From a virus: a stretch of DNA of 37,861 nt. Positions 21,776 through 34,532 of this stretch are shown in pieces. Positions within the stretch are counted from its first letter, which is position 1; the number at the start of each line of letters is the position of its first letter. The stretch lies in IMG/VR virus record IMGVR_UViG_3300032325_000004, positions 1 to 37,861 of that record; one strand, written 5' to 3'. Below the pieces are notes generated by a model that worked only from the letters and a program-made list of their open reading frames with translations, did no database searches and was not told the DNA's origin. Both the position numbers and the translations under genes were made by a program.

Positions 21776-22234
21776 ATGACCAACCGATTACCCCCCGAAT
21801 TGCATTTAGTTCATGGCACAAAGCAAGGTCACGCAGGCGGCACTTTGCCTGAAAAGTTACGCGCAAGAGTTCCAAAGGCTGAATGGCTGGACAACCCTGA
21901 CGCATGGGACAGGGACAAATTTATCCAAGAAACCTCCGACTTTCTTTGGGAAACCTATGGGATTGGAAGCAATCAAGACAAGCACGTTTTGGCGGCACTT
22001 GCCAATCAGATGGACATTTACATTAAGTGTATGAAAGGCGTAGCCAAGGGCGGCATCATTACGCAATTTAACGCTGGTCAAACAGTCGGACCAAATCCCT
22101 TTTTGACTGCTGGCGACAAAGCATTAAGCCGTGCGGTTGCATTGATGAATGAACTGGGCTTAACACCGCGAGGTCGCTTGGCTACAAATAAAACCGAGGG
22201 CGGCAAATACAGCAAGCTACTAAACGGACCATGA
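21776..22234 (+). CDS. terS: Terminase small subunit, P27 family
   Basis: 152 residues. The C-terminal segment TVGPNPFLTAGDKALSRAVALMNELGLTPRGR is the conserved core of the P27 small-terminase family. The N-terminal PELHLVHGTKQGHAG is also typical. It recognises the phage genome and hands it to the large subunit for packaging. The repeats just upstream may be its target. Overlaps the large terminase start by 4 bases. Confidence 0.9.
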   Translation: MTNRLPPELHLVHGTKQGHAGGTLPEKLRARVPKAEWLDNPDAWDRDKFIQETSDFLWETYGIGSNQDKHVLAALANQMDIYIKCMKGVAKGGIITQFNAGQTVGPNPFLTAGDKALSRAVALMNELGLTPRGRLATNKTEGGKYSKLLNGP

Positions 22235-23892
22235 CCTACGAAGATGGCATCCTGTATGCGGTGCGTGTGGCAAAGGGAGAGTTAACAGTTAGCCGTAATG
22301 TGCGGCTTGCTTGTCAACGCTTTTTAAATCAGCTTGAAGAAAGAGCATGGGGTTATGAATTCCATGTTGACTATGTAACGCATTTCCTTGAGTTTGCCAA
22401 AACGCTTGTTCACACAAAAGGACCTGACGCTGGCAAGCCATTGATGCTTGAGCCATTCCAAATATTTATCATTTGCGCCATCTACGGATTCAGAAGCAAA
22501 AAAGATGTGAGCAAGCGCATGGTCACGGATGTAATTGTGTTTATTCCGCGCAAAGCGGGTAAGTCAACGCTGACCGCTGTTATTGCGTTATACGAACTAA
22601 AGTGGGGTGAAGCTGGCGCAGAGGTTTACACCTTGGCGACCACACGCGAACAAGCAAGCATTGTTTTTGATGCCGCTAAAGGTTTTGTGGAAAATATGCC
22701 ACACGATGTAGCACAACTTTTTATTGTGCATCGCAACCAAATTACTGTTGCTGGCGACAGTCAAACAAAGTTTAAAGCGTTAAGCAGAGACACAAAAAAG
22801 ACAGGCGATGGCATGAACCCATCTTGCGCCATCATTGATGAGGCGGCGCAAATTGTGGACAGAAACGCAATTGAAGTGTTGCATTCAGGCATGGTGGCAC
22901 GGCAAAACCCTTTGCGTATCTACATAACAACGGCATCCTTTACCAAGGAAACCAAGTTTTATGAAGATATGCAGATGCTGGAAAATATGCTTAACGGCGA
23001 AGCAGAAGACAATCCAAGATGGTTTGGTTTGCTGTACAGCTTAGACCCACAAGACGATTGGCGAGACCCTAAGATATGGGCTAAAGCTAATCCTATGCAC
23101 GGCATCAGCGTGTATGAAGATGCAATAGCGGAAAGAGCAGAACAGGCAAAGCATAAGCCAGCGGCGCTAAATGAATTTCTATGCAAAACACTTAACATTT
23201 ATGTTAGCGCAAACTCTGCTTGGCTTGACCGCGCATATTGGGATGATGACAAGGCATTTATAAAAACACAACGAGAACCCGAAGCGGTTTTTATAGGCTT
23301 TGACTTGGCGGCTACGCGAGATTTAAATGCAGTTTGTACGCTGAAACGCTTTGCGGAAAATGACTTTGAAGCAGAGTTCAAATTCTTTTTGCCCGAAGAA
23401 GGCTTGGCACTTGTGCCTAAACATTACAGCGATATTTTTCGCGTAGCTGTTAACTCAGGCATCTTACATATTACCGAGGGCAACGTAATGGATGACCGCG
23501 AGATAAGCGACTACATCATTGGGCAAGCCCAAAAATATGACGTTAAGGAAATTGGCTTTGATGCCTACAATGCCGCAAGTTTGGTTGCACGATTGCACGA
23601 AGCTGGCTTGCCTGTTAAGAAAGTTGGGCAAGGCATGGCGGTGTTAAGTAATCCAAGCAAGCAAGTTGAAAAGTTAATTATGAATTACGGCATCAAGCAT
23701 GATGGCAACCCATTTGTGGGATGGCAACTTGGCAACTGTGAGGTTTATGTAGATGTAAATGGAAATGTAAAAGTTCGTAAAAATGAAAATGACAAAAGTG
23801 CAAAAGTTGATGGCATAATCGCACTTATCATCGCTACGCATTGTTCTTTGGACAACCCGACAATGAGTGGCTTTGGTTTCCGAACTTTCTAA
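22231..23892 (+). CDS. terL: Terminase large subunit, HK97-like
   Basis: 553 residues. ATPase domain: Walker A-like IPRKAGKST (105-113), Walker B CAIIDE (199-204), and coupling motif ITTAS. Nuclease domain: GFDLAATRD with D358, then EIGFDAYNA and a terminal DGIIALIIA supplying further acidic residues. It translocates DNA into the prohead and cuts it. The best ORF for phylogenetic placement of this phage. Confidence 0.95.
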   Translation: MTYEDGILYAVRVAKGELTVSRNVRLACQRFLNQLEERAWGYEFHVDYVTHFLEFAKTLVHTKGPDAGKPLMLEPFQIFIICAIYGFRSKKDVSKRMVTDVIVFIPRKAGKSTLTAVIALYELKWGEAGAEVYTLATTREQASIVFDAAKGFVENMPHDVAQLFIVHRNQITVAGDSQTKFKALSRDTKKTGDGMNPSCAIIDEAAQIVDRNAIEVLHSGMVARQNPLRIYITTASFTKETKFYEDMQMLENMLNGEAEDNPRWFGLLYSLDPQDDWRDPKIWAKANPMHGISVYEDAIAERAEQAKHKPAALNEFLCKTLNIYVSANSAWLDRAYWDDDKAFIKTQREPEAVFIGFDLAATRDLNAVCTLKRFAENDFEAEFKFFLPEEGLALVPKHYSDIFRVAVNSGILHITEGNVMDDREISDYIIGQAQKYDVKEIGFDAYNAASLVARLHEAGLPVKKVGQGMAVLSNPSKQVEKLIMNYGIKHDGNPFVGWQLGNCEVYVDVNGNVKVRKNENDKSAKVDGIIALIIATHCSLDNPTMSGFGFRTF

Positions 23893-23901
23893 AGGAAAAT
23901 C

Positions 23902-25485
23902 ATGGGAATACTAGACGTTTTCACAAGAAAAGATAAGGTTTCCAAAGAATCAAATACGCTATTTGGACAGACTGCGCTTGGCAATAATGTTGTTTATCAA
24001 GGCAACAATAAGAATTTAACAGTCAACACGCAGATTCTTTATGTAACTACTGGAAGCACAACTAACGCTGGTCGACCTGTTGACACTTCAACGCTGACAA
24101 GAAACAGCACAGTAATGTCCTGCATTGGTGTTAAAGCAAGGGCTATATCACAATTGCCAATCAAAATTATGGCGTTGTCGGAAGATGGCTCTTATGTAAA
24201 TGCTTTAACAGACACAAACGTAGGCACAAGAGATAAAGTAAAAGCAAAGCAAGTTTATAACTTGTTGACGAACCCAAACAACTTCCAAAGCCAATATGAA
24301 TTTTGGTATCAATGGATGATGTGGCATGAAATGCTTGGCGAAGCGTTCACTTTGTGGTGGAGAAAAGACCAAGATAATCCAACGCAAACACCTTTGGAGA
24401 TGTACGAACTGGACAGCACGTTAATTGCTGTCACCATTACGCCAACACGCTATCCAAGCTATCGATTGTCTACACCTAGCTACGGCTTTAACAAAGACGA
24501 ACCACTTGCATCGCATCAAGTTATGCACTGCAAGGATATGGCATGGCAAGGCTCTGCTGGCTTTAACAAAGGCTTGCTTGCCGCTGAGTTAGTAGGCTTA
24601 GACCAAGATATTGACTTGTACGCAAACTATGTCATGCTGAACGGCGCAAAGCCAAGCGGTATGTTCATAACTGACAATGTTATTCCTGACGCTAAATATA
24701 AAGAAATTGCCGCACGATTAAAAGAAGCGTGGTCATCAATGGTTGGTAGTCAGCAAACAGACAAGAGCAAGCCCGGTCAAGGAATGTTGCTTGACCAAGG
24801 CATGAAGTATGAGCCATTGAAAATGTTAAGTTTGCAAGATACAGATTTAGCAAATTTAAAAGAACAAACTATGAAGCGCATTTGTGGTGTGTACGGCGTA
24901 CCGCCTGCAATGCTTCACATTGGCGACCAAAAATATAACAACACCCAAACCATGTTGGATGAGTTCTACAAATCCACTATGTACCCAATCATTGTTAACG
25001 TACAGCAAAAATTAAAATCATCTTTGCTACAAGGTTACCCAAATTTGTGTGTTGAGTTTGATGTGCAAGACTTTTTAAAAGGCGCACCGCTTGACCAAAT
25101 GAACTATGTGGTTGCTGGCGTTAACGCTGGAATAATGACACCTAACGAGGCGCGAGAATATCTTGGCAAAGCAAACATAGATGGCGGCGATGAATTGCAA
25201 AGCCCTAAAAAAGCTGAACCAATTGCAGGCTCAAGCCCACAAGACACAGGCGGCGGCGGTGGCAATCAAACCAAGAAAATGAACATTGGCAAAGAAGAAA
25301 GATTGACCGAGCAAACAATTAACTTTTCGCCTGAGTTGAAATTAAACCCAAATATCACTGTTAAATCTGAACCAACCGAATTAAATTTAAATATTCAGCA
25401 AGAACACCGCAGAACGCATAAAAAAATCACGCTTGTCCGAAATGCTGATGGTGCAGTCATCGGCGCAGAATCAAAGGAAATGTAA
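23902..25485 (+). CDS. Portal protein, HK97 family
   Basis: 527 residues. TLTRNSTVMSCIGVKARAISQLPIKIM, LLTNPNNFQSQYEFWYQWMMW and MKRICGVYGVPPAMLHIGDQ are conserved portal motifs of the HK97 family. It forms the dodecameric ring at one vertex through which DNA passes. The C-terminal tail (about 440-527) is glycine-rich then charged and is longer than usual. AAAGGAAAATC precedes the start. Confidence 0.95.
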   Translation: MGILDVFTRKDKVSKESNTLFGQTALGNNVVYQGNNKNLTVNTQILYVTTGSTTNAGRPVDTSTLTRNSTVMSCIGVKARAISQLPIKIMALSEDGSYVNALTDTNVGTRDKVKAKQVYNLLTNPNNFQSQYEFWYQWMMWHEMLGEAFTLWWRKDQDNPTQTPLEMYELDSTLIAVTITPTRYPSYRLSTPSYGFNKDEPLASHQVMHCKDMAWQGSAGFNKGLLAAELVGLDQDIDLYANYVMLNGAKPSGMFITDNVIPDAKYKEIAARLKEAWSSMVGSQQTDKSKPGQGMLLDQGMKYEPLKMLSLQDTDLANLKEQTMKRICGVYGVPPAMLHIGDQKYNNTQTMLDEFYKSTMYPIIVNVQQKLKSSLLQGYPNLCVEFDVQDFLKGAPLDQMNYVVAGVNAGIMTPNEAREYLGKANIDGGDELQSPKKAEPIAGSSPQDTGGGGGNQTKKMNIGKEERLTEQTINFSPELKLNPNITVKSEPTELNLNIQQEHRRTHKKITLVRNADGAVIGAESKEM

Positions 25486-25899
25486 ATGCCTATCTCGACA
25501 ACAATGACCAATTCTTACAAGCAAGATATCTTGTCAGGAACACAAGCATCAACAGACACATACAAGATTGCTTTATATACGTCATCAGCTACGCTAGATG
25601 CGTCTACAACGGCTTATTCTTCAAGCAATGAGGTAGTAGGCACAGGCTACACCGCTGGCGGCGCTACGTTGTCAGGCTTTGCTACTGGCTTGGCAGGGTC
25701 AACTGCTTATTTGACGTTTACAAATCCAACTTGGTCAACTTCAACAATTACGGCTCGCGGTTGCTTAATATACAACTCAAGCAAAAGCAATAAGTCCGTG
25801 GCGGCATACGATTTTGGCGCTGATGTAACTAGCACGAATGGCACATTTACAGTTAACTTTCCTGCTGTTGGTGCTACTGGTCTTATTCGTATTGCTTGA
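25486..25899 (+). CDS. Putative structural protein after portal
   Basis: 137 residues, starting at the base after the portal stop. Rich in Thr/Ser/Gly and probably all-beta (TYKIALYTSSATLDASTTAYSS, YLTFTNPTWSTSTITARGCLIYNSS, FTVNFPAVGATGLIRI). Similar beta proteins occur among virion proteins of environmental phages. A capsid decoration or fibre-like role is inferred from composition and place. Confidence 0.6.
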   Translation: MPISTTMTNSYKQDILSGTQASTDTYKIALYTSSATLDASTTAYSSSNEVVGTGYTAGGATLSGFATGLAGSTAYLTFTNPTWSTSTITARGCLIYNSSKSNKSVAAYDFGADVTSTNGTFTVNFPAVGATGLIRIA

Positions 25900-25901
25900 T
25901 T

Positions 25902-26084
25902 ATGCAAATCATTTTTGAACATATTCATAATGGAATTATGTTTAGGGATGCTTTATATTTACCTGATAACCATACATATACTGATGCTGAAATAGATGCA
26001 ATGAAACAAGAGCGCATCAGTAATTGGGTGTCATTAATTACATCTGCGCCATCAGAATCTTTGCCTGATGAAAGTTCTGAATAA
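25902..26084 (+). CDS. Small protein before beta-rich giant (unknown)
   Basis: 60 residues from the ATG at 25902; a TTG at 25896 overlapping the previous stop is another possible start. MQIIFEHIHNGIMFRDALYLPDNHTYTDAEIDAMKQERISNW is soluble, with the C-terminal half helical. The stop overlaps the next ATG as TAATG. It may act as an accessory to the following large protein. Confidence 0.55.
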   Translation: MQIIFEHIHNGIMFRDALYLPDNHTYTDAEIDAMKQERISNWVSLITSAPSESLPDESSE

Positions 26085-28654
26085 TGGCAAATAGATATTG
26101 GGTTTCAGGCGGTACAGGCAATTGGTCAAGTACAACTAATTGGAGTACATCATCAGGCGGTGCAAGAGGCGCTAGTGTACCAAGCATAAATGACACGGCA
26201 ATATTTAATGCCTCATCTAGTTCGGGCATTGCCACATTAGATTCAAGCGTTACGATTCAAGAGTTGACAATAACAGGGTTCACTGGAACTTTGGCATTTG
26301 GAACAAATACAATTTCTTTGAATGGCACAGGAACTATTTTTACTGCTGGTAGTTTTTACAATGTAACTGGAACACCATTAATACTTTGCACAAATGCTTC
26401 TGCATCATCAAGAACAATTAATGCAGGAACAACAACAGAAGCAACTTGCATAAGTTTTCAGTTTACCGCTGGTAGTGGCGCTGTAACCATTAGTAGCGGT
26501 TCAACAATTAGAAGTCTTATTTTTAGCGGCACATTTACAGGTTCATTATCTAATAGTGCTTTTGTACTTGTTGGAGATTTAACATTTAAAGCAGGAATGA
26601 CCATAACTGCTGGCACAGGAATTAAAACATTTGCCGCAAGTAGTGGTACGCAATCGATAACAAGTGCCGCATTAAATTTAAATTTTCCAATTACATTTCT
26701 CAATTCGTTTGTAACCTACAGATTGAAAGATGCTTTGGCTGTTGGTACTACAACCGCAAGAACAATAACACTTCAAGCAGGCACACTTGATTTAAATAAT
26801 TTCACATTAACTCATTTTGGTAATTTTTCTTCAAACTTTAGTGGCGCAAGGTCTATTGCTTTTGGCACAGGGTCTTATGTAAATACAAGGTCAGGTTCTG
26901 CAACGTATTGGGACTTTCCGAATACTGAGTTTTTTTCATACACTGGTACTCCTAACGTAATTTTTTCTCCTAGTTCGGGTACTTGTACTATTCTCCATGG
27001 AACAAGTGGAGGAGGCTCAGAATCAAAAGCATTGAATTTTACTTTTGGTAATGTTGGTGCAACTATTGCTTTTAGCAATTCGTATATATTAGATTTAACT
27101 TTATTAGGTGGTGGTTCAAATCATACATATACAAATACTACGCCAACTATTTATGGAAGTTATAGCCAAAATGCCTCAACGAATTTTACATCACTAACTC
27201 TTGCTTCTACTAACACATCACGAATAAATACCATAAATCCAGCGAATTTTAGTTCTTTACCATCTACTATGAACATTAATGGTGGGGTTGGAACAGTATA
27301 TAAATTATTAAATTCTAGTACTTCTCTTCTTGTTGCTTGGAATGTTTTTTCATCGCTTGATACAAATGGTCGAAATTTATCAGGCAATTCTTTTAATTTT
27401 AATAATTCAAATACAAAAACCATAACTATAAGTAGTGGTAACTATATAGAGATTAATAATAATTTTGGTGGTAGCGGCGCATTTATTGGTTCTATGGTTG
27501 GAACAACTTTAAACGTAGCTGGTTCTAGTGTTCGATTTGGCTCAAGTGGTTGGTTTAATGTGCCTAATGGAACTTTTCCTGAATTAAATGTAGAAGTACC
27601 TATTTTTTCCAATACAACAAATACAGTTTTAGTTGGGTCTGTTGGTAATACACAAACAATAGAAACAATTAAGGAAGCAAGTGGAATACCCAATAGATTA
27701 GGAAAAATTGTTCTTATTGAAGAGTCAACGCTTAATGTTGTGGATATGTTCTACACCAATAATGGCGGCATTACTAACCCTTTAAATACAATATTTCCAA
27801 ATATACAAGCCACATTAAGAAAGACAAGCGGAACTTTAATTGTAAACCAGCGCAACATACGCGATATTGTTGCTACAGGAGGTGCGGTTTTTAGAGCGCC
27901 AACAGTTGCCCCATATAACAACATCAACGGAGGCAATAATGTTGGATGGGACTTTGGGGCATTACCTGTTGATGGCACGGCAAACGTCACAGGCGTTCAA
28001 GCAACAGGTGCAGTAGGTACTGCTACAGCAACAGGCGAAGCAAATACAGACTTAACAGGTGTAGAAAGCACAGGTCAAGTCGGTGTAACAACTGCAAATG
28101 GTGATGGGCAAACAAATTTAACTGGCGTTGAATCTACTGGTGAAGTTGGCACAACAACAGCATCAGGCGCGGCAAATGCGGATTTAATAGGCGCACAAAC
28201 AACAGGTTCGGTTGGTACAGTAATTGCATCAGGCGCAGGAAATGTTAATTTAACAGGCGTAGAGGCAACAGGTGAAGTTGGCACAGTAACCGCAAGCGGC
28301 GGCGGCGCACAAGCTGGCAATGCTTATCCAACAGGCGTTCAAGCTATTGCAAGCGTTGGCACAGTTACGGCAGACGGAGGCAATGTTGCACCTGTTTTGC
28401 CAAATGGCGGCTTGGGATACCCATTCATTATTGAACCTGACCGCATTATTCCACCGCGTCATGCGGCGGCTGGCGTTAAGTCGGCTTCTGCTATAGGCAA
28501 AGTTGGCAAGGCTTTAGCTTTGGGGACAATTGTGATAAATGCAGAAGTTAGCGTACAAGCAATTTTGCATCAAATAAAAATTAATTCGATGATGGCAAAA
28601 GGAATCCAAAACCCAACAGATGAAGAATTGATTGCTTTATTTTTTATGGATTAA
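26084..28654 (+). CDS. Large beta-helix-like repeat protein between portal and protease
   Basis: 856 residues. The start ANRYWVSGGTGNWSSTTNWSTSSGG resembles the opening of beta-helix surface proteins. About residues 35-600 are Ser/Thr/Asn/Gly-rich strands consistent with a long beta-helix. Residues about 634-766 hold six copies of a 22-residue repeat (LTGVESTGEVGTTTASG type), with a degenerate seventh copy near AAGVKSASAIGKVGKALALG. The last segment is helical. The DNA is visibly more A+T-rich than its neighbours. Probably a virion surface or adhesin protein; its insertion inside the head gene block is unusual. Confidence 0.7.
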   Translation: MANRYWVSGGTGNWSSTTNWSTSSGGARGASVPSINDTAIFNASSSSGIATLDSSVTIQELTITGFTGTLAFGTNTISLNGTGTIFTAGSFYNVTGTPLILCTNASASSRTINAGTTTEATCISFQFTAGSGAVTISSGSTIRSLIFSGTFTGSLSNSAFVLVGDLTFKAGMTITAGTGIKTFAASSGTQSITSAALNLNFPITFLNSFVTYRLKDALAVGTTTARTITLQAGTLDLNNFTLTHFGNFSSNFSGARSIAFGTGSYVNTRSGSATYWDFPNTEFFSYTGTPNVIFSPSSGTCTILHGTSGGGSESKALNFTFGNVGATIAFSNSYILDLTLLGGGSNHTYTNTTPTIYGSYSQNASTNFTSLTLASTNTSRINTINPANFSSLPSTMNINGGVGTVYKLLNSSTSLLVAWNVFSSLDTNGRNLSGNSFNFNNSNTKTITISSGNYIEINNNFGGSGAFIGSMVGTTLNVAGSSVRFGSSGWFNVPNGTFPELNVEVPIFSNTTNTVLVGSVGNTQTIETIKEASGIPNRLGKIVLIEESTLNVVDMFYTNNGGITNPLNTIFPNIQATLRKTSGTLIVNQRNIRDIVATGGAVFRAPTVAPYNNINGGNNVGWDFGALPVDGTANVTGVQATGAVGTATATGEANTDLTGVESTGQVGVTTANGDGQTNLTGVESTGEVGTTTASGAANADLIGAQTTGSVGTVIASGAGNVNLTGVEATGEVGTVTASGGGAQAGNAYPTGVQAIASVGTVTADGGNVAPVLPNGGLGYPFIIEPDRIIPPRHAAAGVKSASAIGKVGKALALGTIVINAEVSVQAILHQIKINSMMAKGIQNPTDEELIALFFMD
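27983..28380 (+). repeat. Tandem 66-bp (22-residue) coding repeats
   Basis: Six consecutive units encode variants of LTGVxATGxVGTxTASGxxN. The units differ at many synonymous positions, so they are old or under diversification rather than recent copies. The fifth unit carries a short insertion (GGGAQAGNAY). Confidence 0.8.
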
Positions 28655-28659
28655 AATAT

Positions 28660-28875
28660 ATGAACACTATTTTTGAAAAAGTGGTAGCATATTTGCAAAG
28701 TTACAAGCCAAATGTCGGTGTTGCTAAACGTGGCAGACCGCCAAAAACAATACAAGACATTGACCGAACAAAAGTCGATGAGGTAATTTATGACCAAAAA
28801 CTTGATGATGGTATGCGAAGCAAAACTGATGGTTCAAAACCCATCAGAGGCGGCAGAACCGACAGGCAAGATTGA
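28660..28875 (+). CDS. Small basic protein overlapping protease
   Basis: 71 residues. Contains KRGRPPKT, an AT-hook-like basic element, then a charged tail (DDGMRSKTDGSKPIRGGRTDRQD) that overlaps the prohead protease start. Only a weak ribosome binding site is seen. It could bind DNA or a head protein; function is not recognised. Confidence 0.5.
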   Translation: MNTIFEKVVAYLQSYKPNVGVAKRGRPPKTIQDIDRTKVDEVIYDQKLDDGMRSKTDGSKPIRGGRTDRQD

Positions 28876-29581
28876 AGCAATGGTGACGACATGGGGCGCA
28901 AGAGAGGGCGCTGATGGTCGCAAATTTAATTATCAGCCCGAAGGCTTTATGGATTGGGCTGAAACCTTTTCCAAAGAAGGCAAGCCATTGCCCATGTTTT
29001 TAAATCATGCGGCTGACAATATGCCAGTAGGCGAATGGCACAGTTTTGAATTTAATGATGATGGCATGATGGCAGAGGGCAAGTTGTTTATGAATACAAC
29101 TGCTGGCTCTGACCTTTATAAAATCATGAAAGAAAGCCCCAAAATGTTTGGCGGCGTTTCGGTTGGTGCTTACGCTGACGAATACCAATATGTGAATGAA
29201 GATGGTATGCCAATGATGGCAGGCGATGATACCGATGAGGGTTATTTCCAAATCACTAAAGGCGGCTTGCGTGAAGTCAGCGTGGTGATGTACCCAAACA
29301 ATTTACAGGCAGAAGTGCAATCATTGGAATATTTCCGCAAAGATGGTTCTGCCAATTTAAAGAATTTGGAAAAGGCTCTGCGCGAAGCAGGAATTTCCAA
29401 AAAAGATGCGGTCACTTCCGCATCTGTCTTCAAAAAGGTATTGGAGTTGCGTGATGCGACACAAGCCCCAATTGAAAATGCGCCACAACAGAGTGAGTCC
29501 GATGTGGATGTGACCGAACTACTTTACGCATTAGAACTGCGTGAGTTATCCAAAATGTTAGATAAACGACTGAAAGGTTAA
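28790..29581 (+). CDS. Prohead protease, HK97 (S78) type
   Basis: 263 residues. Core motifs PMFLNHAADNMPVGEW (H73), MFGGVSVGAYADEY (S124) and GLREVSVVMYPNN are those of HK97-like prohead maturation proteases. GAGG lies 6 bases before the ATG at 28790. It removes the scaffold part of the capsid protein. The C-terminal about 80 residues are acidic and helical and may act as internal scaffold. Confidence 0.9.
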   Translation: MTKNLMMVCEAKLMVQNPSEAAEPTGKIEAMVTTWGAREGADGRKFNYQPEGFMDWAETFSKEGKPLPMFLNHAADNMPVGEWHSFEFNDDGMMAEGKLFMNTTAGSDLYKIMKESPKMFGGVSVGAYADEYQYVNEDGMPMMAGDDTDEGYFQITKGGLREVSVVMYPNNLQAEVQSLEYFRKDGSANLKNLEKALREAGISKKDAVTSASVFKKVLELRDATQAPIENAPQQSESDVDVTELLYALELRELSKMLDKRLKG

Positions 29582-29583
29582 TC

Positions 29584-30933
29584 ATGTCAAAAGAAATCCT
29601 TGAAAAGCTGGATGCTATCGAAGCTAAACAAGCCGAAGCAGTATCAGCAGTAGAAGCAAAAATTCCCGAAGCCATTGCCGCTGTGCAAGCTGACGTAGCC
29701 GAAAAGCTGTCCGCTTTTGAAGCTAAATTAGCATCTGTTCAAGCGCCTGCAATCATTCGCGCACCCCACAAAACTGTGCGTGGTGATGTGAACCGCGCTG
29801 TGCGTGAGCAAATTTCCGCTTATTACAAAGGTGGTCGCCAAGGCGAAAAAGAACTGAAGATGTTTGAAGACGCTGGTCAATACGATGCGTATTTGCAAGA
29901 AGCATCTGCGCTGACTGCTGGCGGTAACAATCAGGGTGGTCGTACAGGCTACGACCCTGTGTTTGTTGCTCTGCGTTTGGCTAACCCTATGCGCGGTGTT
30001 TCTCGCACAGTTGCAACCGATGGTTCTTCTTATCAATTCCGAGTCAAGACTGGCAACGCTGGCGCGGCTTGGGGATACACCATCCAAAACAACGGCGCGG
30101 CAACAACTGAAGATACTTCAATTTGGCAATTAGTTTTGCAAGATTTGAACGTGCAATTCCCCATCCGTACAGCCGCATTGGATGACATTGATGGTTTGGA
30201 AGGCAATGTTGTTGATGATATGTTGGCAGAATTTGCACAAAGCGAAGCCTTGTCAATGGTTCAGAACAATGACCAAGCCGCACAATCAGCATCTAACCCC
30301 TATGGCGGTACAAACGGCTTGCGTGGTCTTGACCAATACGCTGGCGCAAATGCTACCTACACAGGCGGCACAGCATCAACAGCGGCATATGGCACAAGTG
30401 GTACAGGCTCAACAACTGGCTTGCACAGCTTGGCGACCTATGACCAATTAACTTCAAACGTCAATACTGTTGGCTTGAACAATATTGCATACAAAGATGT
30501 GATTAACTTCATGTATTCTTTGCCACAGCAATATTGGACAGCAAACGCTAAGTTCATGGTCAATCCAATTTTGGCTCAAGCTATTCGTGGCTTGCAAGAT
30601 ACCAATGGTCGCCCAATCTTCAACTCTGTTGAATCTTTGAACCCTGATGGCATCATCGGTCAAATGTTGGGCTTTGATGTGGTTATCAATAAGTATCTTG
30701 ATAACCCATTCCAAGGAACTGCTGGCGCGGCTGGCACTAACAGCTTGTACCCAATGTACTTTGCTGACTGGTCACGTTTCCACACAATCGTTGACCGCTT
30801 GAACATGGTCATGCGCCGCTATGACCAAACAGCGCCCGGCTTCATAACTTTTTATGGAGAAAAAAGACTTTGCACCAGTGTGCGTGATCCCAATGCTGGT
30901 GTTCGTTATCGTTCTACTGGCACTTCAACCTAA
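29584..30933 (+). CDS. Major capsid protein 1 (HK97 fold, with scaffold domain)
   Basis: 449 residues. Residues about 1-60 form an Ala/Glu/Lys-rich coiled coil (LDAIEAKQAEAVSAVEAKIPE), the delta/scaffold domain removed by the protease. The HK97-fold core begins near SALTAGGNNQGGRTGYDPVF and includes LRLANPMRGVSRTV, QFPIRTAALDDI and closing PGFITFYGEKRLCTSVRDPNAG. It is followed by a strong terminator and then a second capsid paralogue. AAGG precedes the start. Confidence 0.9.
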   Translation: MSKEILEKLDAIEAKQAEAVSAVEAKIPEAIAAVQADVAEKLSAFEAKLASVQAPAIIRAPHKTVRGDVNRAVREQISAYYKGGRQGEKELKMFEDAGQYDAYLQEASALTAGGNNQGGRTGYDPVFVALRLANPMRGVSRTVATDGSSYQFRVKTGNAGAAWGYTIQNNGAATTEDTSIWQLVLQDLNVQFPIRTAALDDIDGLEGNVVDDMLAEFAQSEALSMVQNNDQAAQSASNPYGGTNGLRGLDQYAGANATYTGGTASTAAYGTSGTGSTTGLHSLATYDQLTSNVNTVGLNNIAYKDVINFMYSLPQQYWTANAKFMVNPILAQAIRGLQDTNGRPIFNSVESLNPDGIIGQMLGFDVVINKYLDNPFQGTAGAAGTNSLYPMYFADWSRFHTIVDRLNMVMRRYDQTAPGFITFYGEKRLCTSVRDPNAGVRYRSTGTST

Positions 30934-30944
30934 TTGTTGCCCTT

Positions 30945-30977
30945 GGGTGGAGGCGTAAAAAACCTCCACCTTTTTTT
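30945..30977 (+). terminator. Strong terminator between the two capsid genes
   Basis: GGTGGAGG (30946-30953) pairs perfectly with CCTCCACC (30963-30970) around a CGTAAAAAA loop and is followed by seven T (30971-30977). This is a textbook Rho-independent terminator after capsid gene 1. The downstream capsid 2 and all tail genes must be transcribed by read-through, antitermination or a promoter that I could not identify. Confidence 0.9.
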
Positions 30978-31000
30978 AGCAACCTTTTTTGGAAAACAAA

Positions 31001-32035
31001 ATGAGCATCACCGAACGAATCCTTACTGGTATAAAGCAAACAATCGAAACAGGCGATAAAGTCAAGATTGACTTGCGTGAAGCGTCTGCACTTACAGGGT
31101 CAGGAATTAATATCGGTGGTCGCACTTTATTTGATGATGCGTTTGCCGCTTTGCGTTTTGCTAACCCATTGCGCCAAGTTGCAAGACAAGTTGTCCGAAG
31201 CGGTCAAAGCGCGGTGCAGTTTGTTGCAAAAACTGGTAACGCAACTACACAAGCAAACCCTTGGGGATACACATTTACGCCTGATAGCGGAACACCCAAT
31301 ACAAACACTTCTATTTGGCAAATACCAACTCGCGTGATTACAGCGCAAATTCCAATTCGTTCTGCTGTTTTATCTGACGTAAATTATTTAGATGAAACAT
31401 TGGTGCAGGACTTGTTCCAAGAATTTGGCACACAAGAAGCCAATTCAATGATTATCAATAATGACCAAGCAGGCTCTACAACCACCACAACTGGCGGCGT
31501 AGATGGTTTGCGTGGTTTGAATAGTTATACAACTGCGGTGGCTTCTGCTTATGGCACAAGCGGCACGGCAATCACAAATGGCATTCATAGCATTGCAACT
31601 GTTACACAAGCAACGGCGGCAATTAACTATGGGGCAATTACTGATATAGCACGTTTGTTTCCTGCTCAATATTGGAATTTGCCCGGCACAGCATGGATGA
31701 TGCACCCACAAACAATTCATGACTTGCGTAACCTTGGACCGGTTACAGCCGCAATCAGAGAATTTGCTGAAGTGGGCAGTAATGAGGGCGGTGCAATAAA
31801 AAATATTTTTGGCTTCCCTGTGATTGCAAATCCATATATGCAAACTGTTGGCGCTGGCAACTTCAGCGTGTACTTAGCAAACTGGACAAACTTTGTGACT
31901 ATTGCCGATGTGGAAGAAATGAATGTTCAAGCGTTTGAGCAAACCACTCCCGGCTTCATAACTCTGTACGCAGAGAAACGATTGGTTTCTACTGTGCGCG
32001 ACCCTTTTGCTGGCATTCGTTTGGTTGGTGTTTAA
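31001..32035 (+). CDS. Major capsid protein paralogue 2 (no scaffold domain)
   Basis: 344 residues from the ATG at 31001 (GGA 8 bases upstream). It is homologous to capsid 1 through the whole fold: SALTGSGINIGGRTLFDDAFAALRFANPLRQ, TSIWQIPTRVITAQIPIRSAVLSDV, SMIINNDQAGS and PGFITLYAEKRLVSTVRDPFAGIR; in that last block 19 of 27 aligned residues match capsid 1. It lacks the coiled-coil domain, having only about 25 residues before the fold. It may form pentons, decorate, or replace capsid 1 at special sites. Confidence 0.85.
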   Translation: MSITERILTGIKQTIETGDKVKIDLREASALTGSGINIGGRTLFDDAFAALRFANPLRQVARQVVRSGQSAVQFVAKTGNATTQANPWGYTFTPDSGTPNTNTSIWQIPTRVITAQIPIRSAVLSDVNYLDETLVQDLFQEFGTQEANSMIINNDQAGSTTTTTGGVDGLRGLNSYTTAVASAYGTSGTAITNGIHSIATVTQATAAINYGAITDIARLFPAQYWNLPGTAWMMHPQTIHDLRNLGPVTAAIREFAEVGSNEGGAIKNIFGFPVIANPYMQTVGAGNFSVYLANWTNFVTIADVEEMNVQAFEQTTPGFITLYAEKRLVSTVRDPFAGIRLVGV

Positions 32036-32037
32036 CC

Positions 32038-32706
32038 ATGTCTGTTGACCAACTTGGCTATTTAACCATTGGTGCGCCAACTCGCAATCCATTCAACTAT
32101 GAAAAGTTTGAGCAGATTGCGCGTGATAACACTACTGCATGGTTAACGCTTGCCGAAGTTAGACAGCAACTTAACTTGTTTGACGATACAAGCCAAGATA
32201 CTTATTTAAGCGGTTTAGAAATTGCGACCCGCCAAGCGATTGAAGATTATTTAGGCATGAGTATTTTTGCCACAAGTTATCGCGTGTATTACAACGCGGC
32301 AAGTTTGTATGGTACGCCTTTAGCTTTGGATTTGCCCGAAGTTTCGCAAAACAACGCAACACCAGCAAGCGGCGTGACCATTACAAATGTTAAGTATTTT
32401 AATGATGCCACACCGCCTGTTTTAACGACTGTTGACCCTACGACATACTACTATGACAACTCAGGCAATAAAGTGGTGCTACAGACGCTTCCAAGCGATT
32501 TAAACAGCAACATGACAAGCCCTGTATCCTGTGAATATGTTGCGCCAGCAAATCCCATTGCGGCTTATCAAGTGGTTAAGCAAGCTGGCAAACTTTTGTT
32601 AACGCATCTTTACAATAATCGTAGCGATACGACTGATGGCAATTCCAAGTTTATTCCTTTTGGAGTGGCTACCTTATTGCGACCCTACAAACCATTGGTG
32701 ATGTAA
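32038..32706 (+). CDS. Head-tail connector (gp6-like)
   Basis: 222 residues. WLTLAEVRQQLNLFDDTSQDTYLSGLEIATRQAIEDYLGMSIF is the conserved N-terminal helical block of phage head-tail connector (gp6/gp15-like) proteins. A beta-rich insertion follows, then a C-terminal helix. It extends the portal channel after packaging. Begins 2 bases after the capsid 2 stop. Confidence 0.85.
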   Translation: MSVDQLGYLTIGAPTRNPFNYEKFEQIARDNTTAWLTLAEVRQQLNLFDDTSQDTYLSGLEIATRQAIEDYLGMSIFATSYRVYYNAASLYGTPLALDLPEVSQNNATPASGVTITNVKYFNDATPPVLTTVDPTTYYYDNSGNKVVLQTLPSDLNSNMTSPVSCEYVAPANPIAAYQVVKQAGKLLLTHLYNNRSDTTDGNSKFIPFGVATLLRPYKPLVM

Positions 32707-33503: not shown

Positions 33504-33998
33504 ATGCCTTTACCAACGAAAGTTTTACCCGGCTTTACCGCCTCGCTGTATGTGCAACCACTTGCAACACCAACACCATTAACCACCGCACAGCTTTCGT
33601 TGATTGCAAGCGTTTCTCCGCTTACTGTCAGCGGCAACTTGTTGCAAGTGGAAGCCGTGCCTGCATTTGGTCAAGATGATGCTGTTGCCAATTTTTCTGT
33701 GGCTGGCTCGCGTCAATCAGACAAAATACCAACACAAAGCGCACCAACATCATTGACGATTACTGTGGCTTGGAATCCAAGCGATTCAGTTTTGTTATTG
33801 GTTCGCGCAGATGCTTACTCAGGCTTGATTGACCGCACTTACATCGTACAAGCTACCGATGGTACAGGCACAGTTAATTATGCCTTTAATGCTCGCGTAG
33901 GACAGTTCCAAATTGATGCTCAACCCGGTGCAGAGGCTAAATGTATTTTTACCTTGCATCCAAGAAGCGGTCAGTATGGTTGGACAAACACAGTTTAA
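33504..33998 (+). CDS. Major tail tube protein 1
   Basis: 164 residues with GGAAGGAA upstream. MPLPTKVLPGFTASLYVQP, AFGQDDAVANFSVAGSRQSDKIP and PTSLTITVAWNP are typical tail-tube beta-sandwich segments. It is followed by a close paralogue. It forms the tail tube through which DNA exits. The first of the tandem pair; it lacks the AGGTGAAG-type insertion of the second copy. Confidence 0.85.
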   Translation: MPLPTKVLPGFTASLYVQPLATPTPLTTAQLSLIASVSPLTVSGNLLQVEAVPAFGQDDAVANFSVAGSRQSDKIPTQSAPTSLTITVAWNPSDSVLLLVRADAYSGLIDRTYIVQATDGTGTVNYAFNARVGQFQIDAQPGAEAKCIFTLHPRSGQYGWTNTV

Positions 33999-34013: not shown

Positions 34014-34532
34014 ATGGCATTACCAAATAAAGTTTTACCCGGCTTCGTAGCCGATATGTGGATGCAATCAGGCGCATCACCCACACCTTTGACAACAGCA
34101 AACTTAGCGGTTTGGACAGCGCAAGTGGCTACTATTGTTGGCACAACTGCTGGCGGTACAGGCGCGGCAGGCGTTGAAATCGGTGTGGAGTCTGTGCCTG
34201 CGTTTGGGCAAGATGATGCAGTAGCTAATTTTATGGTTGCTGGCGCACGTCAAAGCGACAAGATTCCTACACAATCAGCACCCACATCCATGACAATTAC
34301 AGCGGCTTGGAATCCAAGCAGTGCGTCATTGTTGTTGATACGAGGTGACGCATACAGCGGATTGGTAGACCGCACCTATGTGATTTCTGCTTATGATGGA
34401 ACAAATACTGTGGCGTATGCTTTTAATGGTCGTGTAAGTCAGTTTCAAATTGACGCACAGCCCGGCGCAGAAGCCAAGTGTGTTTTCACAATTCATCCTC
34501 GCGGCAATCAATACGGCTGGAGTAATTCATAA
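34014..34532 (+). CDS. Major tail tube protein 2 (paralogue)
   Basis: 172 residues, GGAG 8 to 11 bases before the ATG. It is clearly homologous to the preceding gene: a 34-residue block beginning AFGQDDAVANFMVAGARQSD matches at 31 positions, and the end QFQIDAQPGAEAKC is identical. It has a short extra loop (TTAGGTGAAGVEIG). At the DNA level the shared blocks differ mainly at synonymous sites, so the duplication is not recent. Confidence 0.85.
   Translation: MALPNKVLPGFVADMWMQSGASPTPLTTANLAVWTAQVATIVGTTAGGTGAAGVEIGVESVPAFGQDDAVANFMVAGARQSDKIPTQSAPTSMTITAAWNPSSASLLLIRGDAYSGLVDRTYVISAYDGTNTVAYAFNGRVSQFQIDAQPGAEAKCVFTIHPRGNQYGWSNS

Follow-up and report, generated by a model that had tools for sequence, protein, structure and literature searches.

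Phage T4 encodes two HK97-fold capsid paralogues, gp23, which forms the hexamer lattice, and gp24, which forms the pentamers at 11 vertices (PMC9958956, PMC3012670). The two are about 20% identical, with 65 residues being removed from gp23 and 10 from gp24 (PMC9958956), and some of the changes that bypass gp24 fall in the A domain of gp23 (PMC9958956, PMC3012670). T4 itself is large and prolate, and has a separate scaffold core. HK97 and the Rhodobacter GTA (RcGTA) differ in that hexamers and pentamers alike come from a single capsid gene. Tandem HK97-fold shell paralogues with A-domain differences are also found in the two-component encapsulins of family 2B (Enc1/Enc2; PMC12407261), but these are bacterial enzyme compartments with randomly mixed shells, and lack portal, terminase and protease. 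Of 50,697 phage records, that of Methylophilaceae phage P19250A (KX815270), an LD28 phage, is the sole one to match our locus at E <= 1e-5. This cultured phage carries both genes described below in the same order, 60% (MCP1) and 54% (MCP2) identical to ours, although the second is annotated as hypothetical and there is a single tail-tube gene.

The window analysed here, an IMG/VR virus record of 37,861 nt taken whole, carries two tandem HK97-fold capsid genes, MCP1 and MCP2, in a head module that runs from the terminase large subunit through portal, S78 prohead protease, MCP1 and MCP2 to a head-tail connector (Table 1). As in T4, there are two HK97-fold paralogues per genome and the A domain is implicated; unlike in T4, they are about 40% identical and lie in tandem in phages of ~38 kb, with a scaffold-like region fused to MCP1. 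The paired capsid genes are a trait found throughout a large family of small phages from fresh water, and MCP2 is well supported as a conserved capsid partner. It is very probably also a genuine and required structural partner, and a place at the vertices of the shell is about as likely as not. In the openly accessible papers searched, no description of the pair was found.

The module shares with HK97 the order of portal, protease, capsid and connector, and the fused scaffold region. An earlier note on this DNA had called it a small lambda-like form, which was imprecise: with its terminase, portal, S78 protease, MCP with fused scaffold and connector, the module is HK97/GTA-like. The protease keeps its position next to MCP1 in relatives. 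The coordinates and lengths given in that note for the two reading frames (449 and 344 aa) hold; for MCP2, the list of open reading frames starts at TTG 30989, and the conserved start, which gives 344 aa, is ATG 31001. Beside the module, an insertion of ~3.2 kb (window 25486-28654) separates the portal and protease genes, which are at most 187 nt apart in 106 related loci; two proteins are encoded there, one of 137 aa assigned to PHROG 644 and one of 856 aa without Pfam or PHROG match. At its C-terminus, the portal of the window is longer than the stretch that aligns with relatives. Another structural gene is also duplicated in tandem, giving two tail-tube-like genes (33504-33998 and 34014-34532) that are 65% identical.

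Table 1. Head-module features in the window, with the evidence for each.
Feature	Position	Strand	Evidence
Terminase large subunit	22231..23892	+	PHROG 9, E = 5.8e-136
Portal protein	23902..25485	+	Pfam PF04860, E = 4.8e-62
Prohead serine protease (S78), directly 5' of MCP1	28790..29581	+	Pfam PF04586, E = 1.1e-8; PHROG 80/3244
MCP1, main HK97-fold capsid protein, 449 aa, with N-terminal scaffold-like region	29584..30933	+	Pfam, PHROG, Foldseek
MCP1 N-terminal scaffold (delta-like) region, residues 1-106	29584..29901	+	Helices in model; ends at invariant E106 (LQE|ASALT), putative protease site
Intrinsic-terminator-like hairpin GGGTGGAGG-CGTAAAAAA-CCTCCACCT plus T tract, MCP1/MCP2 junction	30945..30977	+	Dedicated scan, junction folding
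Shine-Dalgarno-like GGA of MCP2, 3' of hairpin	30991..30993	+	Sequence; GGA near MCP2 start in many relatives
MCP2, second HK97-fold capsid protein, 344 aa	31001..32035	+	BLASTP, Pfam, PHROG, Foldseek
MCP2 short N-terminal peptide, residues 1-27	31001..31081	+	Ends at invariant E27 (LRE|ASALT); putative site equivalent to that of MCP1
Head-tail connector (adaptor Ad1 type), directly 3' of MCP2	32038..32706	+	Pfam PF05135, PHROG 40

MCP1 and MCP2 are both HK97-family capsid proteins. BLASTP aligns them with 141 of 348 residues identical (41%, E = 2e-72), and in the block that begins QTAPGFITFYGEKRL a count on the sequences reproduces the 19 identities in 27 residues quoted by the earlier note. 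Both match PF05065 Phage_capsid (E = 8e-28 and 1.7e-19; 98 and 70.8 bits, against a curated cut-off of 24.2) and PHROG 10, major head protein. Among solved structures, the profile of each protein finds the Rhodobacter GTA capsid (E = 4e-12 and 1e-5), which is the nearest solved capsid to the pair. The same capsid (6tb9) is the top Foldseek match for both AlphaFold2 models (E = 1.8e-15 and 2.6e-14), followed for both by other HK97-fold capsids, including that of HK97 (prob 1.00). The alignments behind the models are shallow, with 52 sequences and P19250A left out, and confidence is modest (pLDDT 63 and 61), so the models serve for the fold only and are too weak to tell pentamer from hexamer contacts. 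The proposal that these are tandem paralogous HK97-fold capsid genes is thus borne out by identity, Pfam, PHROG and Foldseek alike; the alignment and modelling that had been suggested show the proteins to be homologous and support an HK97 fold for gene 2. In Pfam, MCP2 has no match to the T4 gp23/gp24 family at E <= 0.1, PF05065 alone being found. MCP2 may work like gp24, but by sequence it is not a gp24-family member: its nearest kin are MCP1 and the RcGTA and HK97 capsids, and the pair seems to have arisen by a duplication separate from that of gp23/gp24.

Like the minor paralogue of T4, MCP2 has the shorter N-terminal peptide: 27 residues precede its core and 106 that of MCP1, as compared with 10 and 65 removed in T4, cleavage in our proteins being a prediction. 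The 106 residues of MCP1 are mostly helical in the AlphaFold2 model and appear scaffold-like, with close to the length of the delta region of HK97 gp5, which we take to be 103 aa with cleavage after K103. The earlier statement that MCP2 has no scaffold domain is right for most of the scaffold, which is missing, but the short peptide that remains ends at a putative cleavage site common to MCP1. The Glu of this site is invariant, as E106 among 53 MCP1 sequences and as E27 among 53 MCP2 sequences. In larger sets, a hydrophobic-x-Glu motif is found in 252/252 MCP1 (7 with Gln at the hydrophobic place) and 310/310 MCP2, and its spacing of 11 residues to the core GG in 217/252 and 307/310, respectively. 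As the prohead protease of SPN3US cleaves after Glu (PMC10052503), retention of the motif in both proteins suggests that one S78 protease probably still serves both, trimming MCP2 at the conserved putative site. The conserved Glu may instead be structural.

The core also differs. The A domain is the part that meets at the capsomer centre. Taken as the segment after the spine helix, it is 26 residues shorter in MCP2 than in MCP1, while the E-loop is 4 residues longer and the N-arm and spine are equal, all within domain boundaries that are approximate, being drawn from predicted secondary structure. Extra domains are seen on MCP2 alone and never on MCP1. The MCP2 E-loop of one set of related phages (L290, L299-L315) carries an insert of ~70 residues, which in L290 (4414-5652), the one member tested, matches the tail fibre family PHROG 38233 (E = 2.6e-12); by motif search this fibre-like insert occurs in 9 distinct complete MCP2 and in 0 MCP1. 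E-loop inserts called by regular expression in L414, L415, L422 and L427 proved false once the sequences were read. A domain of ~105 residues is fused to the MCP2 N-terminus, ahead of the conserved Glu site, in two separate lineages, one consisting of L287 (4387-5724) and its kin and the other of L342, L354, L356 and L359; that of L287 matches PHROG 2859, a family of unknown function. Additions that are restricted to MCP2, one on the face expected to be outer and one on that expected to be inner, favour a virion component less constrained than the lattice protein. A possible, tentative extension is that MCP2 is a vertex protein doubling as the add-on platform of the head, with the fibre-like E-loop domain pointing outward at the vertices in some lineages, the ~105-residue domain pointing inward into the prohead in place of the scaffold in two, and MCP1 staying free of additions.

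The 50-82 nt between MCP1 and MCP2 hold a G+C-rich hairpin, a run of T's and then, mostly, a Shine-Dalgarno-like GGA ahead of the MCP2 start. With a dedicated scan, the terminator-like hairpin is found in 52 of 53 diverse loci, as against 0.6% of shuffled junctions, and in none of the 106 adjacent junctions scanned, two for each locus. The hairpin of the window has a loop longer than a generic terminator scan allows and was found by the dedicated one. Junction folding gives dG <= -8 in 119/119 loci, and the stem letters vary among loci with base pairing kept. Because the HK97 record annotates a putative terminator directly after the capsid gene gp5, there is nothing unusual in a stop behind such a gene, which would be expected even without MCP2. 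What is unusual is a second capsid gene beyond the terminator, in what would be the low-copy expression class of the connectors. Given the hairpin, MCP2 should be made in smaller amounts and so be less abundant than MCP1, and since it lies behind the terminator and adjoins the head-tail connector gene, it is probably expressed with the connectors.

The search for other phages with both genes, as the earlier note had advised, yielded 209 distinct complete MCP1-MCP2 sequence pairs, that of P19250A included. These pairs and the cultured phage rule out a local oddity, a misassembly or a single capsid gene split by a frame error. In our scan of IMG/VR, a sample of metagenomic contigs of which many are incomplete, MCP2 is present in 106/106 MCP1-anchored loci with at least 600 nt downstream, and from MCP2-anchored loci MCP1 is found directly upstream wherever the contig reaches, the exceptions being contig ends. 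Gene 2, whose conservation the note had made a test of its idea, is therefore kept in every checkable relative. The pair also occurs on 5 contigs filed in bacterial or archaeal MAGs. In 8 loci a capsid ORF seemed to be lacking or supernumerary, which came down to BLAST matches crossing a stop or to ORF-label artefacts (6 read fully, 0 real). Searches by MCP1 and in bacterial genomes returned no real relative with a single capsid copy. The sole apparent exception is a MAG contig (L168:1-753) on which the end of an MCP1-like gene and its hairpin run into a PHROG 26742 ORF and then into chromosomal-type genes on the other strand; as a search with that ORF led solely to contigs with an unrelated head module, we treat it as a probable chimera and not as a single-copy relative. 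In contrast, the tail-tube tandem has two copies in 65 related loci and one in 48, P19250A also having one. Since these phages do vary in copy number of the tail-tube gene, close sampling is not in itself enough to explain why the capsid pair is universal.

In a 64-row tree, the MCP1s and MCP2s form the two sides of one branch with support of 100. Rooting with an outgroup gives an MCP2 clade (support 100) on a stem of 1.20 and MCP1 on a stem of 0.24 (support 67); this is a quick tree, and as the outgroup consists of four distant single-capsid phages at 22-27% identity, the rooting rests on long branches. Intermediate single-capsid outgroups were searched for and not found. The difference in stem length indicates that MCP2 is probably the changed copy, and the simplest reading is one ancient duplication before the sampled family radiated. 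Median MCP1-MCP2 identity is 39.8% within and 39.2% between genomes. This equality shows no trace of the two genes having exchanged sequence later, and rules out gene conversion as well as a recent duplication. Purifying selection acts on both to a similar degree, with median dN/dS over 1050 pairs of 0.19 for MCP1 and 0.20 for MCP2, and the dN of the two is correlated (r = 0.85).

This evidence fits paralogues that have become specialised, the penton being one of the roles open to MCP2. We propose that MCP1 and MCP2 are an ancient pair building one HK97-type head, a scheme in which we infer the expression ratio, the cleavage, the virion incorporation and the vertex position. Scaffold-fused MCP1 would form the hexamer lattice and drive prohead assembly, the terminator behind it would lower MCP2 output, the S78 protease common to MCP1 would remove the short N-terminal peptide of MCP2, and MCP2 would form the pentamers at the non-portal vertices. 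In this capacity, MCP2 would be a processed virion protein present in minor amount, with the vertex (penton) as its most likely place and T4 gp24 as its independent counterpart; we give the whole of this proposal about equal weight for and against. A vertex role is put first because long and short N-terminal regions and changes at the capsomer centre recur as in gp23/gp24, and because pentons are a minority share of the shell. A T=7 head has 415 subunits (PMC10052503), which T=7 geometry, assumed here from the ~38 kb genome, divides into 360 in hexamers and 55 in pentons; a share of 55/415 suits a minor partner behind a terminator.

MCP2 could, however, be mixed with MCP1 at irregular hexamer or pentamer positions and tune the stability or surface of the shell. 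This is how the tandem encapsulin shells, with their diagnostic A-domain differences, assemble at random (PMC12407261), and the nearly full-length N-arm and E-loop of MCP2 and the fibre-like domain carried by some of its E-loops would agree with it. A two-component encapsulin would be expected in a cargo-enzyme operon that lacks packaging genes, which this locus is not, as the pair lies among genes for terminase, portal, protease and connector. Moreover, paralogues of ~40% identity that are no more alike within a genome than between genomes point to separate capsomer roles, and the loss of most of the MCP2 scaffold argues against interchangeability, so that mixed assembly is in our view possible but rather unlikely. 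The place of MCP2 behind the terminator and directly before the connector gene might suggest a unique, low-copy site, perhaps next to the portal or neck, or a role in starting assembly there. This is improbable in view of the full HK97 fold with conserved arm and loop, which are the needs of a lattice subunit, and none of the HK97-fold proteins known to us is confined to the portal vertex.

Alternatively, MCP2 may be a non-virion factor (a chaperone, an inhibitor or a size-setter) present transiently in proheads, a role in which a protein without most of the scaffold could act as an assembly chain terminator. The putative protease site common to MCP1 in 310/310 MCP2 and a fibre-like insert on the face expected outside favour a part of the virion, making such a factor quite improbable. 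The earlier note had further considered replacement of MCP1 under some conditions, which the retention of both genes throughout and the terminator between them make less likely, and capture from another phage, which is contradicted by the tree, with MCP2 sister to MCP1, a single duplication and congruent divergence. A foreign or decaying gene without a required role would account for the low identity to MCP1 and for the hypothetical annotation in P19250A, but is hardly credible for a sister of MCP1 that is universally retained under purifying selection.

If the division of labour between MCP1 and MCP2 is as we propose, it would be a second independent and widespread case of a split shell, found in small phages of ~38 kb, and a large prolate head would be unnecessary for it. 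P19250A would then offer a compact cultured system for how a scaffold-fused capsid protein gives up pentamers, and a name would be given to a gene that is called hypothetical in that phage and is present in hundreds of freshwater viral contigs.
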